64,000 nucleotides of DNA. Origin: Candidatus Eubacterium faecigallinarum (lineage in GTDB: Bacteria > Bacillota > Clostridia > Oscillospirales > Acutalibacteraceae). The notes under the pieces are model-generated. The model was not told the origin of the DNA. It did no database searches and was given only the letters and a program-made list of their open reading frames with translations. Position 1 is the first letter of the stretch, and the number at the start of each line of letters is the position of its first letter. The stretch is from contig DXDN01000001.1 of NCBI GenBank assembly GCA_019115455.1, positions 1 through 64,000 of the forward strand, in the 5' to 3' direction. Position numbers and translations under genes: made by a program. This document shows positions 49,919 through 64,000 of this stretch, piece by piece.

Positions 49919-51742
49919 TCAAAGCTCAAACTCAACATTGTAATTTTTTATCCACACATAAATCTGATAAATATAAGCCAGTACCTGTGGCACCTGCATA
50001 AGCTGACCGTACCACGGCTCGGTCATCGAGTCGGGATTGTTCATCAGTTTTCTGACAGCGCCGACATCAATCATCTCGCTGAGGGGGCAGGATTTATCAT
50101 CCAGAGCACGCTGCGCAAGATTGCACACGCATTTGAAATACACGGGATTATGTGTTTTCGGATACGGACTTTTCTTGCGCCATGCGATTTCATAGGGCAG
50201 ATCGTTTTCAAAAGCTTTTCTGAGGATTCCCTTTTCTCTGCCGTCCAGCGCCTTAATATGCCACGGCATATTGTACGCATATTCAACCAGCCTCCAGTCG
50301 CAAAACGGAACTCTTACCTCCAGCGATGACTCCATACTCATTACATCCTTGCGTGCCAACAGAGTCTGCATAAACCAGTTGAGATTGAGCACAAACATTT
50401 CTCGCATGCGCTTTTCGAGCTTGCTGTCGCTGTCTAAGCAGGACACATTAGCAAGAGTGCTCTCATAAGCGTTTTGAAGATAATCCTCGCCGTTTTTAAG
50501 AAAGCCTTTTCTGAGGATATTTCTTCTTGCGGCGGTGGACCTTGACCAGGGGAAACACTCTTCAAAAAGTATCTCCTTTCTGTGATACCATGGATAACCG
50601 CCGAAAATTTCATCAGCACATTCTCCGGAAAGACAGACCGTAAAGTCCTTTTTAACCTCACGGCAAAACAGCAGCAAGGAGGAATCCACGTCTGCAAATC
50701 CCGGAACGCATCTGGCAATTGCGGCAGGGGCAAGGGCATCCGCCACAGCGGCATTATCAAGCACCACATTGTGATGGCGCGAGCCTATAGCATCGGACAT
50801 CATGCCGATAAAATCCGAGTCCTTGTTAGGCTGGAAAAGGCTCTTTTTAAAATACTTGTCATTGTCGGTGTAATCAACGGAATAAGTATCAAGCACCATT
50901 CCGTTCTCCTTATATTTATCAGAAGCCACCTTGGAAATAATGGAAGAGTCAAGTCCTCCGCTCAAAAAAGTTGTCAGCGGAACGTCGGAAATAAGCTGCC
51001 TTTCGATAGAATCCTTAACCAGCGCATAAGTATGCTCAACTGCCTGGAGTTCTGTCTCGGTATTTTCCACAGCCGTAAGTTTCCAGTAAGGCTTAATCAC
51101 AATTCTGCCGTCCTTATAGCTCAGATAATGAGCCGGGGGCAGTTCGCTTATATCTCTGAAAATCGCCTTGCCTATGGTTTTTGCCGGTCCCAGCATAAAT
51201 AATTCGTTGAGCCCCTCCTCATTAACAACAGGCTTTATCTGCGGTATACACAAAAGGCTGCTTATTCTGCTGGCAAAAGCGAACAGATCCCCCACCTTTG
51301 AGTAAAAACAGGGCTTTACGCCTATTCTGTCACGGGCAAGGAAAAGGCTTTTTTCCTTTTCGTCATAAACAGCGTAAGCAAAAATCCCGTTTAGTTTTGA
51401 CACGCTTTGCTCTTTCCATTTGTCATACGCTTTAAGCACAACTTCCGTGTCGCTGTGGCTGTCAAATTTATATCCGCAGGACAAAAGCTCGTCACGCACC
51501 TCAGCGGTGTTATAAATTTCGCCGTTATACACGATAATATATTTTCCAAAGCGCATGGGCTGACCGCCTCTCTCAGGGTCGATAACGCAAAGCCTGCGGT
51601 GTATCAGTGCCGCAGACGGCGTTATATACTCGCCTCTGGCGTCGGGGCCTCTCATTTTCAGCGTCTGACTGATTTTTTCTATCAGGCTTTTTTCGCCTCT
51701 TAAATCTATGGACTCAGTTAATATTCCTGCAATTCCACACAT
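49919..51742 (-). CDS. asnB: Asparagine synthase (glutamine-hydrolysing)
   Basis: A 607-residue AsnB. The N-terminal glutaminase has catalytic Cys2 (MCGIAGIL) and MRGPDARG and YNGEIYN. The C-terminal synthase has the pyrophosphate loop FLSGGLDSSII and SGECADEIFGGYPW. The typical product is asparagine from aspartate, glutamine and ATP. The start has a GAGGTG ribosome binding site. It stands alone between the nitroreductase gene (same strand, 56 bases away) and the small amidohydrolase-like gene. Confidence 0.95.
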   Translation of the reverse strand: MCGIAGILTESIDLRGEKSLIEKISQTLKMRGPDARGEYITPSAALIHRRLCVIDPERGGQPMRFGKYIIVYNGEIYNTAEVRDELLSCGYKFDSHSDTEVVLKAYDKWKEQSVSKLNGIFAYAVYDEKEKSLFLARDRIGVKPCFYSKVGDLFAFASRISSLLCIPQIKPVVNEEGLNELFMLGPAKTIGKAIFRDISELPPAHYLSYKDGRIVIKPYWKLTAVENTETELQAVEHTYALVKDSIERQLISDVPLTTFLSGGLDSSIISKVASDKYKENGMVLDTYSVDYTDNDKYFKKSLFQPNKDSDFIGMMSDAIGSRHHNVVLDNAAVADALAPAAIARCVPGFADVDSSLLLFCREVKKDFTVCLSGECADEIFGGYPWYHRKEILFEECFPWSRSTAARRNILRKGFLKNGEDYLQNAYESTLANVSCLDSDSKLEKRMREMFVLNLNWFMQTLLARKDVMSMESSLEVRVPFCDWRLVEYAYNMPWHIKALDGREKGILRKAFENDLPYEIAWRKKSPYPKTHNPVYFKCVCNLAQRALDDKSCPLSEMIDVGAVRKLMNNPDSMTEPWYGQLMQVPQVLAYIYQIYVWIKNYNVEFEL

Positions 51743-60228: not shown

Positions 60229-60257
60229 AAAAAGGCGGCAGCCCGAAAGCTGCCGCC
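60229..60257 (-). terminator. Terminator of the dockerin/repeat-protein/peptide transcript
   Basis: On the minus strand GGCGGCAGC (60257-60249) pairs with GCTGCCGCC (60242-60234), followed by TTTTT. It lies 21 bases after the peptide gene stop codon, confirming that the peptide gene is the last of its transcript. Confidence 0.88.
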
Positions 60258-60278: not shown

Positions 60279-60380
60279 TTAATCCCAAGAAGGATTAAGG
60301 TTCTCAATAGATGTTGTTACAACATCTGTTGTCTTGAATTCCTGTACTTCTGAAACCGGCTTAGTATAAAGTTCTTTCAT
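60279..60380 (-). CDS. 33-residue peptide of unknown function, possible peptide precursor
   Basis: A short frame opening at ATG 60380, with GAGGGGG about ten bases upstream, and ending TAA at 60279, followed by a terminator. The peptide begins MKELYTKPVSEVQEF, continues KTTDVVTTS, and ends IENLNPSWD. It is acidic and has no cysteine, signal peptide or membrane segment. It lies 24 bases after the 905-residue secreted protein on the same strand. The layout (polar leader-like part with KP and EV/EF, then TTS, then a short tail) recalls families of short Clostridia peptides and ribosomally made peptide precursors, but I cannot assign a family. A 19-base palindrome (60309-60327) lies inside the gene. 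Confidence 0.7.
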   Translation of the reverse strand: MKELYTKPVSEVQEFKTTDVVTTSIENLNPSWD

Positions 60381-60404: not shown

Positions 60405-63122
60405 TTAATATGCATATGTCTGAGGTGCAGCATAAACTACCTGAGTAGCACCTTCAGCGTCAACATAAGCAAGGAATGCTCTTGCAACGATAGTACCTGT
60501 CTGAGCAGTGATACCATAGTTGAGTGCGAACTGATTAGCGTCAGTAGCGCAGTAGATAGCCTTTACAGTAGAACCGTCAACATCAGCAAGAGTGATCTCC
60601 TGATTTGCAAGATCCTTACCATAAATGTATCCAGCGTTTACATATGTGCAATCATCAGTCATTTCACGAGTTGCAAGGAATGAAGCACCCTTCATACCGT
60701 TTGATGTGATCTCTGTTACTGAAACTGATGCAACTGTAGGAGCAGCCTCAACTACATCATATACAGGTGTAAGATCCATATCAGTACCGATATAGAATGA
60801 GTATGTTTCACCGTAAGCAACTGTTGATTCACCCATCTTCCAAGCTGTTGCGCCAGGAGCTGTAACTGTTACGAGTGTGTTGTAACCGATACCAGTATTA
60901 ACATCCTCAGTTGTTGCATAAGGTGTTGTGATTGTAGCACCGTCAGCTGTTACTGTATAAGTAACCTCTGTGATTCTCTCATAAACAGGTGTGATTGTTG
61001 TTGTTGCTGTAAGAGCATCAATCTCCTCGTCTGAGAGTGACCAGCCGATAGCGTTGTAGCCAGCTATTGCAGGAACAGCAGGAACAACGATGTCAGCACC
61101 ATTTGTTACGGTCTGTGCATCAACAACGTTGCCGAACTTGTCAGCAAAAATAACAGTGAATTCGTTATCAGCTACTTCATCTTCTACAAGCTGGAATACA
61201 GGTGTGTAAACGATGTTAGCAAGAGCCTTAGCTGTGTAAGTTGCTTCAGTAGAAACGATCTTGCCGTTTACTTCCCAACCTACAAACTCAGCGCCCTCGA
61301 TAGGTGTAGCAGTAAGAACTACGTCAGAATTTGTATCAACATTGATTGTTACATCTTCAGCTGTTACAGCATTGTCGTTAACAGTAGCTGTACCAAGATC
61401 AACAGCCTCAACTGTTACAGAAACGCCCTTAAGAGCAGCGATCGGTCTTGTCTCAACGTGTGAAGGATCGTTGTTACATACACGAGTCTCTTCACCAGCC
61501 TCATCATATGTAGGCTCTTTTGTTACTGTCCACTCGCCCCAATCGTGACCTTTTGCAGGGATAACTTCACCTGTGGTGACTGTCTCGCCGCAAACTGAGC
61601 ACTTGGTGTCGCCGGTGTAACCAGGCTCTGTACATGTAGCAGCCTTAGCGTTGCCAGCGTCTACAGGAGTATGACCTGTTGCTTCGATAACTTCACCAGG
61701 AGTGATTACTTCACCGCAAACTGAGCATACAACGTCACCGGTGTAACCAGGTTCTGTACATGTAGCAGCCTTAACATTAGCAAGCTCATCAGCAGGAGTA
61801 TGACCTGTAGCCTCAGGATACTCGTCATAAGTCTCGCCGCCTACTGTGCACTTGTATACATAGTGGCCAGCCTCAGTACATGTAGGCTCTGTGCTAGCCT
61901 CTGCGTCCTTAACCCAATCATGAGCTACAGGACCGTTTGCAATTTCGTTATATGTTACATCAGCAGTAACATCAGCAACTGCAGGCCATGTATATGTTGT
62001 ATGACCATCATCATTTGATGTTGCAGCTGTGTTTGCAGGAACAACTACATCTGAAGCAGCTGTGCCAGCATCGTAAGCCTGCTCGGAAACTGTAACGCCG
62101 GCAGCGTTTACAAACTTAACTGTGTACTGATCTGCAGGAGCAGGTTCGTTAAAGATATTTGTTCCCATAAATGTGAATTTACGAGAACCAGGAGCTTCGG
62201 TATCGCCCTCAGTGTTAGTACCAGGAATACGATAGTTATACGCATATGTGGTAATATCACCAGTCATGATACCATCATCACGGTGCGCAACATAAAGAGC
62301 ACTTTCGAAGTTCGGATTAAGAGTATTGTCAGGGTCTCTTAATTCAAAATTAATGGGACCTTCGCCTGTGATCTTAAATACCCATGTATGCATGATGAGA
62401 GTATTCTCATATGTATAACCTGTGCTCAGATCACCTGTGTTGGGATCAGCAAAATAATCATCATGTGTTGATGAAATATCTGTACCAGCAGTAGATGAAG
62501 CAATTACATCTTCAAAATAATCATCTTTAATAGATGAAGGCTCAAGAGCTATGTTTATTTCTGGATAATATTTCATAGCTGACATGCTATCAAGGAAGGT
62601 GTCACCACCAGCTGCGAAAGTACCGCCAACAGCTGCTGCTTCTGAAACAGTACCAAGAGCATAAGTCGTTACACGACCGCTTCTGTATGAATAATATCCA
62701 GCAGGCTCAATATTGTCAGAAAATTTGATCTGAGTCTGTAAAGCATATACTGTATCAATGTTTTCAACTACTGAAGTTACTGTGAAATAGTCGCCTACAC
62801 CGTAAGTAACATCTGACTCAGGTGCTGCATAGCCAAGCACTTCGGCTGCTTTTGCTGCTTTTTCAGCAGAAAGTGTAAGAGTTCCGGCTTCCTTATCATA
62901 CTCAAGCGGAACATCATAAAGGCCACACATATCAAAAGTCTTACCAGCAGTTGCTGTATAATCCTGCCAGTCAGTAGCGTCATCTGCATGGAAAGTACCA
63001 AAATACAAATTAATATTTGGCTGATAGTCTCCAGCTGCAGCGAGAGCTGTGAATGGTACAGAAAATACTACCATAAGTACTGCAAGCAGAACTGCAATAG
63101 CCTTTTTAAATGATTTTTTCAT
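60405..63122 (-). CDS. Large secreted repeat protein with Cys-containing 42-residue repeats and InlB-type domains
   Basis: A 905-residue protein with a Sec signal peptide (KKAIAVLLAVLMVVFSVPFTALAA). Residues about 30-330 form a domain with cohesin/adhesin-like strand content that I cannot place. Around 335-395 is an InlB B-repeat-like unit (YTVKFVNAAGVTVSEQAYDAG). Three Cys-rich repeats follow, of the form ATCTEPGYTGDxxCSVCGE...GEVI.A.GH, a surface module common in Clostridia. Further beta units (FVGWEVNGKI, TVIFADKFGNVVDAQTV, YNAIGWSLS) follow. No sortase or dockerin motif is seen at the C terminus (PQTYAY). It follows the dockerin gene by 60 bases. Confidence 0.82.
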   Translation of the reverse strand: MKKSFKKAIAVLLAVLMVVFSVPFTALAAAGDYQPNINLYFGTFHADDATDWQDYTATAGKTFDMCGLYDVPLEYDKEAGTLTLSAEKAAKAAEVLGYAAPESDVTYGVGDYFTVTSVVENIDTVYALQTQIKFSDNIEPAGYYSYRSGRVTTYALGTVSEAAAVGGTFAAGGDTFLDSMSAMKYYPEINIALEPSSIKDDYFEDVIASSTAGTDISSTHDDYFADPNTGDLSTGYTYENTLIMHTWVFKITGEGPINFELRDPDNTLNPNFESALYVAHRDDGIMTGDITTYAYNYRIPGTNTEGDTEAPGSRKFTFMGTNIFNEPAPADQYTVKFVNAAGVTVSEQAYDAGTAASDVVVPANTAATSNDDGHTTYTWPAVADVTADVTYNEIANGPVAHDWVKDAEASTEPTCTEAGHYVYKCTVGGETYDEYPEATGHTPADELANVKAATCTEPGYTGDVVCSVCGEVITPGEVIEATGHTPVDAGNAKAATCTEPGYTGDTKCSVCGETVTTGEVIPAKGHDWGEWTVTKEPTYDEAGEETRVCNNDPSHVETRPIAALKGVSVTVEAVDLGTATVNDNAVTAEDVTINVDTNSDVVLTATPIEGAEFVGWEVNGKIVSTEATYTAKALANIVYTPVFQLVEDEVADNEFTVIFADKFGNVVDAQTVTNGADIVVPAVPAIAGYNAIGWSLSDEEIDALTATTTITPVYERITEVTYTVTADGATITTPYATTEDVNTGIGYNTLVTVTAPGATAWKMGESTVAYGETYSFYIGTDMDLTPVYDVVEAAPTVASVSVTEITSNGMKGASFLATREMTDDCTYVNAGYIYGKDLANQEITLADVDGSTVKAIYCATDANQFALNYGITAQTGTIVARAFLAYVDAEGATQVVYAAPQTYAY
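61615..61880 (-). repeat. Tandem 126-base coding repeats in the secreted protein
   Basis: The block starting GTGTAACCAGG at 61615 recurs at 61741, a spacing of exactly 126 bases (42 codons), with a third, diverged copy further on. Each encodes ATCTEPGYTGD plus a CSVCGE pair. The high DNA identity suggests recent duplication or recombination. Confidence 0.8.
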
Positions 63123-63182: not shown

Positions 63183-63998
63183 TCAAAGTGTTAAATCATC
63201 ATATGCTACTGTTTTACCAAATATTCCGGAAAAAACAGCTGCATCAATTGCATTAACACCCTTGTCTGCATTCAAATCACAGTAGACATTATATTCCCCA
63301 CTAAAGGAACCGGAAAATACTGCAACATCAATAGCGTTGAATGCTCCGTCTTTGTTATAATCACAAATAACAATACCTACACTATCTAAAGTAACAACCG
63401 AATCAACGGCCTTGTCGGAGGATACCGTTAGGGTACCAGCTCTGTCAACAGTCGTTGAACCGCTAAAAGTGATAGTGTACTCTCCCACCGGAATATCCGG
63501 CAGGGTATAGAATCCGTTTTCGTCTGTTACGGCTTGGGCAATTATCAATCCATCTTTTTCAACTGTAACAGTTATACCGATAATTCCAGCCGTAGTGTTT
63601 GTTCCTGTGGTATCGGTAGCAATCAGTACCTGACCGTTTACCGTATACTCCGCTGTAATAACAGGAGTTACATCACAGGACATTGGGTAAAGGTTACCTG
63701 AGTAACCAGGGTACGAATCAACAAGTGCGTACTGGTCGCTAGTACTGTCGTTAAGGTCAACCTGTACAAACGTGTGATTCGGATCTTGATCTGCCGTGAT
63801 ATAATCAGCGGCATCACAATCTGACGCAAAGGTCATAGAAATGGTTGTCAGCACTTGACCGTCAGAAGAAATAGCCGTGCAATCATCATTGCCAGAAATA
63901 AATCCTGTGATGATTGTACTGTTTTCGTTCTTATACCCGATAGTGTGGAAAGGAAATGCCTCATCATCAGATATCGAGTATGACGGCGCTGAAGCCAC
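63183..63998 (-). CDS. Dockerin-containing secreted protein, cut at the window edge
   Basis: A partial C-terminal part of 271 residues; the frame continues to the edge, and the GTG at 63998 is probably internal. A beta-sandwich of carboxypeptidase-regulatory or Cna-B type (IIGITVTVEKDGLIIAQAVTDENGFYTLPDIPVGEYTITF) is followed by a two-repeat type I dockerin. Its calcium loops are DYNKDGAFNAIDVAVFSGSF and DLNADKGVNAIDAAVFSGIF, with the D-x-N-x-D spacing of the F-hand. The second loop has D-x-N-A-D-K in place of a Gly after the last Asp. Dockerins bind cohesins of scaffoldins, so the protein may be part of a cellulosome-like complex. A catalytic domain, if present, lies outside the window. Confidence 0.82.
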   Translation of the reverse strand: MASAPSYSISDDEAFPFHTIGYKNENSTIITGFISGNDDCTAISSDGQVLTTISMTFASDCDAADYITADQDPNHTFVQVDLNDSTSDQYALVDSYPGYSGNLYPMSCDVTPVITAEYTVNGQVLIATDTTGTNTTAGIIGITVTVEKDGLIIAQAVTDENGFYTLPDIPVGEYTITFSGSTTVDRAGTLTVSSDKAVDSVVTLDSVGIVICDYNKDGAFNAIDVAVFSGSFSGEYNVYCDLNADKGVNAIDAAVFSGIFGKTVAYDDLTL

Positions 63999-64000
63999 AG

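Follow-up and report, generated by a model that had tools for sequence, protein, structure and literature searches.

A 33-codon gene behind a secreted-protein gene of Candidatus Eubacterium faecigallinarum as a probable precursor of an LPP-like RiPP

What does a 33-codon open reading frame encode when it lies between the gene of a large secreted protein and a transcription terminator? The window, that is, the whole analysed stretch of 64,000 nucleotides, contains such a frame close to its end, together with the following features:

60229..60257, minus strand: intrinsic terminator, a G+C-rich 9-pair hairpin (60234-60257), then TTTTT on the minus strand
60279..60380, minus strand: probable LPP-like RiPP precursor gene, 33 aa plus stop, called from the frame, homologue searches and conservation
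60282..60317, minus strand: predicted released tail TTSIENLNPSWD, residues 22-33, with a predicted cut site and Ser24 as predicted phosphosite
60318..60380, minus strand: leader, residues 1-21, with the RRE-binding-type motif Y5xxP8, called from conservation; its 3' boundary is predicted from the LPP register (PMC13381572)
60391..60397, minus strand: Shine-Dalgarno sequence GAGGGGG, called from sequence
60405..63122, minus strand: 905-aa secreted protein, upstream in the presumed shared transcript, with a C-terminus of the type ..ARAFLAYVDAEGATQVVYAAPQTYAY
63183..64000, minus strand: gene of a 365-aa dockerin_1 protein (Pfam match), which continues to 64280 past the window

The frame runs from an ATG at 60380 to a TAA at 60279-60281 and encodes MKELYTKPVSEVQEFKTTDVVTTSIENLNPSWD. 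Its ATG follows the stop codon of the 905-aa gene by 24 nt, and the terminator hairpin starts 21 nt past its own stop. An earlier note, made from the letters of this DNA, had described an unannotated 33-residue gene with a ribosome binding site, TAA stop and nearby terminator, on the same strand as the secreted-protein gene; the coordinates agree, and sequence and conservation bear the description out. The product has no signal peptide and matched nothing in Pfam or NCBIfam. Relatives were found by tblastn (E<=10) in 63 of the 80 genomes of the genus, while a family profile (E<=0.01) matched 64 of them, with up to 12 copies per genome; their Shine-Dalgarno sequences mostly read GGAGG. The family is large and belongs to Clostridia that live in gut and rumen. 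In a sample of the class, 25 of 391 genomes carried the peptide, including our genome, in which the profile detected one recognisable precursor and no second copy. Among 43 sequences the leader shows the pattern expected of coding DNA: pN/pS is ~0.27, and third codon positions vary most. Two of the checks proposed in the earlier note, retention of the frame among homologues and nonsynonymous change well below synonymous change, thus came out in favour of a gene. The 33 codons form a genuine gene that is conserved among relatives.

The opposing explanation, a chance open frame or an RNA element in the 3' region of the secreted-protein gene, could draw on the shortness of the frame and on a 19-nt palindrome inside it, AGATGTTGTAACAACATCT, which is perfect in this copy. 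The conserved frame and the codon usage described above refute it, and we assign it practically no probability. The suggestion that the palindrome acts in RNA found no support and was rejected, as just 3 of 47 relatives have a perfect copy. The palindrome is a by-product of coding, because the codons of DVVTTS account for it.

If the frame is a gene, its position behind a secreted-protein gene might be accidental or recurrent. The 905-aa protein carries a Sec-type signal and sub-threshold matches to Flg_new/InlB-like repeats. A long same-strand frame ends close upstream of the peptide in 29 of the 30 best genus hits, and most of 20 further paralogue loci also have a long frame upstream. Where a start was visible, the upstream gene usually encoded a Sec-type signal, as judged by eye and with a crude hydrophobicity measure. 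The exceptions were a transposase-like gene in opposite direction (L018), two loci with no large frame (L177, L180) and one with a membrane protein (L179). In a set of 42 distinct pairs, selected so that the upstream frame spanned 150 aa or more, the gap had a median of 20 nt and the upstream frame exceeded 300 aa in 41. Class-wide relatives have the same layout, with the peptide behind a secreted-protein gene. The pairing is therefore real and recurrent, both across genus loci and among relatives in the class. Even the longer gene order that the earlier note had proposed to look for is kept in Eubacterium sp. MAG.69 (L124), where a relative of the 365-aa protein is followed by the secreted protein, the peptide and then TypA.

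Many upstream partners share the C-terminal type of the 905-aa protein. With the leader controlled, similarity of the tails tracks similarity of the upstream C-termini (partial Mantel r 0.46, p 0.001). That tail type follows C-terminal type suggests that peptide and secreted protein may work together; the correlation is to be read as suggestive, since a gene pair may have been duplicated whole and the leader is under constraint.

On the far side of the 905-aa gene, the 365-aa protein and a 2051-aa protein stand in tandem (to 70797 in window numbering, L234) and share the terminal motif AVFSGxFGxTVxYDxLxL. Tandem proteins with a common end motif, the first of which matches dockerin_1, suggest a cellulosome-like surface complex.

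We then considered the peptide itself. Residues 1 to about 24 are conserved in the family as MKExYxKPxxEVEEFKTVDVITTS, with Y5, K7, P8 and D19 invariant among 30 aligned members. The tails have a mean length of 12 residues and are acidic and variable, with G, D, E and P abundant; 33 of 42 have an aromatic residue within the last six positions. Cys was absent from all 42 tails, and no radical SAM gene was consistently linked in the loci examined, unlike what defines sactipeptides and ranthipeptides. The proposed division into a charged leader and a short tail is strongly supported by this pattern, the boundary lying close to the end of family conservation.

Such an architecture is known from linear polyphosphorylated peptides (LPPs), which were described as a RiPP family in May 2026, with lppAKBSDN of Paenibacillus alginolyticus (PMC13381572). 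In LPPs, an RRE presents the leader to the signal-peptidase-I (SpI)-like protease LppS, whose cleavage site follows T-1. Ser3 of the core is the residue that LppK polyphosphorylates; a Tyr stands at -16, and the leader consensus is YxxPxVLxHQxIxFETxxS (PMC13381572). In our family, 24 of the 26 peptides from across the class, counted after one chance match was left out, have Ser at Pro+16. If this Ser is set at +3, as in the LPP register, cleavage would fall between residues 21 and 22, Y5 would take position -17, and the product would be TTSIENLNPSWD. By this analogy Ser24 is a likely phosphosite and the leader would be cut after residue 21.

Since YxxP resembles the RRE-binding leaders of lasso and LPP RiPPs (PMC13381572), PqqD-type RREs were searched for. 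Two discrete ones exist in our genome. All parts of an LPP-type machinery are present, spread over four unlinked loci, all outside the window:

contig C9: RRE-A, PqqD-type
G000:C1, L073:9669-11044: RRE-B, paired with NTP_transf_5
G000:C13:15352-16071: HprK-like kinase (profile E 2e-83)
G000:C25:91091-91474: signal-peptidase-I-like protease (profile E 3.5e-38)

Directly downstream of the protease gene on C25 lies the gene of an MsbA-like ABC exporter. Structure models show an RRE fold and a kinase fold: modelled RRE-A (pLDDT 91) has its best match in TbiB1 with bound lasso leader (5v1u, TM 0.79) and also matches 6jx3, another lasso B1 with bound leader, and the kinase model matches HprK/P and PEPCK folds. 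By profile, the kinase is weakly related to ScmC/HprK. In the PDB, the protease weakly matches signal peptidase I; in its family His and Asp are invariant and the Ser of GTSM is present in all sufficiently long rows, a pattern that matches the catalytic residues S29/H68/D93 of LppS (PMC13381572). In several genomes of the genus, the pair of RRE-B and NTP_transf_5 stands just before a LepA-type GTPase gene.

Peptide and machinery occur together. PqqD-type RRE matches were obtained in 72 of the 80 genus genomes, two of them weak (G004, G025). The peptide is present in 64 of the 70 genomes with a clear RRE and in none of the 10 without (Fisher 5e-9, uncorrected for phylogeny); in six genomes a clear RRE was found but no peptide was detected. 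Profiles detected the kinase in 63 and the protease in 65 of the 80 genomes. Both are absent from the same 10, which are also those without clear RRE and without peptide. Several peptide-carrying genomes, all draft assemblies, have no detected kinase or protease (e.g. G024, G034, G037). In a TypA tree, nine of the ten machinery-less genomes could be placed; they occupy at least three positions, with G041 nested among carriers. The joint absence of RRE, kinase, protease and peptide thus goes back to few independent events in at least three lineages, a number that is approximate because the tree is built on a single gene. Across the class, all 25 peptide carriers have PqqD, versus 189 of 391 genomes (48%) overall (p 1e-8).

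In some relatives, the genes are also physically linked. The peptide adjoins the RRE in G073, G076 and G028 and the kinase in G076. Two genomes (G431, G171) have the gene order peptide, kinase, RRE, protease, and G168 has a cluster of these four plus two NTP_transf_5 genes and an ABC exporter. The machinery is likewise clustered in L089 and L231. The earlier note had proposed a search for a radical SAM or leader-peptidase partner. Candidate partners were indeed found (kinase, RREs, protease, NTP_transf_5 and exporter), but radical SAM enzymes are not among them, and maturation by such an enzyme was dropped because the linked loci carry the kinase/RRE/protease set instead.

The cluster of L231 (4447-9685, G049:C1) is compact. 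It opens with a 133-aa precursor-like protein that contains NPEINVILFSNEDVIATSG, a longer type of precursor, followed by an RRE-like gene, ABC exporter, protease, kinase and NTP_transf_5.

Taken as a whole, these observations lead us to read the peptide gene as an LPP-like RiPP precursor matured in trans, with a probability of about 0.77. The idea of a small modified peptide, one of several in the earlier note, is strongly supported. As the machinery is scattered in our genome, the assignment of the peptide as its substrate rests on co-occurrence and on the relatives. Maturation might proceed as follows. The leader, about residues 1-21, would dock on a discrete PqqD-type RRE via Y5xxP8. The HprK-like kinase would (poly)phosphorylate Ser24, the signal-peptidase-I-like protease would cleave near residue 21, and the MsbA-like ABC exporter would secrete the acidic tail of about 12 residues, which NTP_transf_5 may have modified further. 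As the peptide would share its transcript with the 905-aa protein, the production of the tail probably keeps pace with that of the protein. Presumed co-transcription and the correlation between tails and C-termini suggest joint action, so that the tail would probably act outside the cell together with the 905-aa protein.

The same gene pairing and correlation would also fit a small peptide that stays unmodified and serves the upstream secreted protein as partner, chaperone or regulator, with the RRE, kinase and protease acting on other substrates. We consider this improbable, since the peptide is absent together with the three machinery genes, has RRE and kinase genes as physical neighbours in several genomes, is conserved in the leader rather than the tail, and has no signal peptide of its own.

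How closely does the LPP-like reading correspond to the described LPPs? A YxxP leader, a conserved N-terminus and a variable C-terminus are common to both, as is the list of parts: discrete RRE, HprK-like kinase, SpI-like protease, NTP transferase and MsbA-like exporter. The conserved Ser lies in nearly the same register as the phosphosite S3 of LppA. However, of the full leader consensus only YxxP and Ser correspond, HQ and FET being absent, and the distance from Tyr to Ser is one residue longer in Clostridia. The tails in the genus are also very short and acidic. Furthermore, the Clostridia precursors are dispersed, most of them following genes of secreted proteins, and the machinery would act in trans; in our genome four unlinked loci take the place of a single gene cluster. 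Because of the different leader consensus and the scattered genes, we call the system LPP-like rather than a proven member of the family.

Phosphate need not be the final group on the tail. The kinase step could yield an intermediate that then receives a nucleotide, a sugar or a glycerophosphate from NTP_transf_5 or from other enzymes. In our genome NTP_transf_5 forms a pair with RRE-B, and the authors of the LPP study left their final product unidentified and suspect more steps (PMC13381572). Nothing speaks directly against this variant, which we rate as a serious possibility somewhat short of even odds; it is compatible with the LPP-like reading and included in the confidence given for it.

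A lasso peptide or other cyclised RiPP would also explain the YxxP leader and RREs whose closest relatives, by profile and fold, are lasso B1 proteins. The likeness extends to paeninodin-like phosphorylated lasso peptides, which combine a [W/Y]xxP leader with a B1-type RRE, an HprK-like kinase and an NTP transferase (PMC13381572). Here, however, the motif has Y rather than W, the Cys-free tail has only about 12 residues, and the B2 transglutaminase-like leader peptidase gave only a sub-cut-off match in our genome. No cyclase, including the macrolactam synthetase (C protein), was found in the clusters examined. The AsnB encoded in the window (49919-51742) starts with MCGIAG, like an ordinary glutamine-dependent enzyme. 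The lasso candidate was rejected, and cyclisation in general appears very unlikely.

The arrangement of the LPP-like genes recalls prochlorosin-type RiPPs, in which one machinery serves many precursors that have a conserved leader, hypervariable tails and positions distant from the enzymes. Conserved leaders, variable tails and remote precursors are found here too. The chemistry differs, given tails devoid of Cys and no lanthionine synthetase in the loci examined, and here the precursors are tied to secreted-protein genes.

The LPP study maps Bacilli and capsule loci, its main text makes no mention of Clostridia, and it states the biological role of LPPs as unknown (PMC13381572). In the literature searched, with subscription papers and preprints outside the search, we found no Clostridia system described with one machinery and scattered precursors behind secreted-protein genes. 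LPP-like precursors behind surface-protein genes of Clostridia, up to a dozen per genome, tie a kinase-modified RiPP to specific extracellular proteins, which makes the question of LPP function testable. Tentatively, and at rather less than even odds, we propose a genome-wide peptide cofactor system of Clostridia, in which a central set of kinase, RRE, protease and exporter would mature many different short phosphopeptides. Each of these would follow the gene of one large secreted protein, be produced along with that protein and be specific for it, and its exported tail would help to anchor, assemble or label the protein at the cell surface. Mining for precursors close to enzymes could overlook genes scattered in this way, and this precursor goes unrecognised by Pfam and NCBIfam.

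Two other kinds of gene lie near peptide loci. A LytR-CpsA-Psr ligase-like gene, recognised by eye, adjoins seven of them (L002, L004, L006, L007, L008, L016, L029). Small lipoprotein-like genes whose products end in ..DKDGWINKWY follow the peptide genes of L020, L021, L023 and L025 and possibly encode a further partner. The peptide tail GWVDKWY of L183 resembles these lipoprotein ends.
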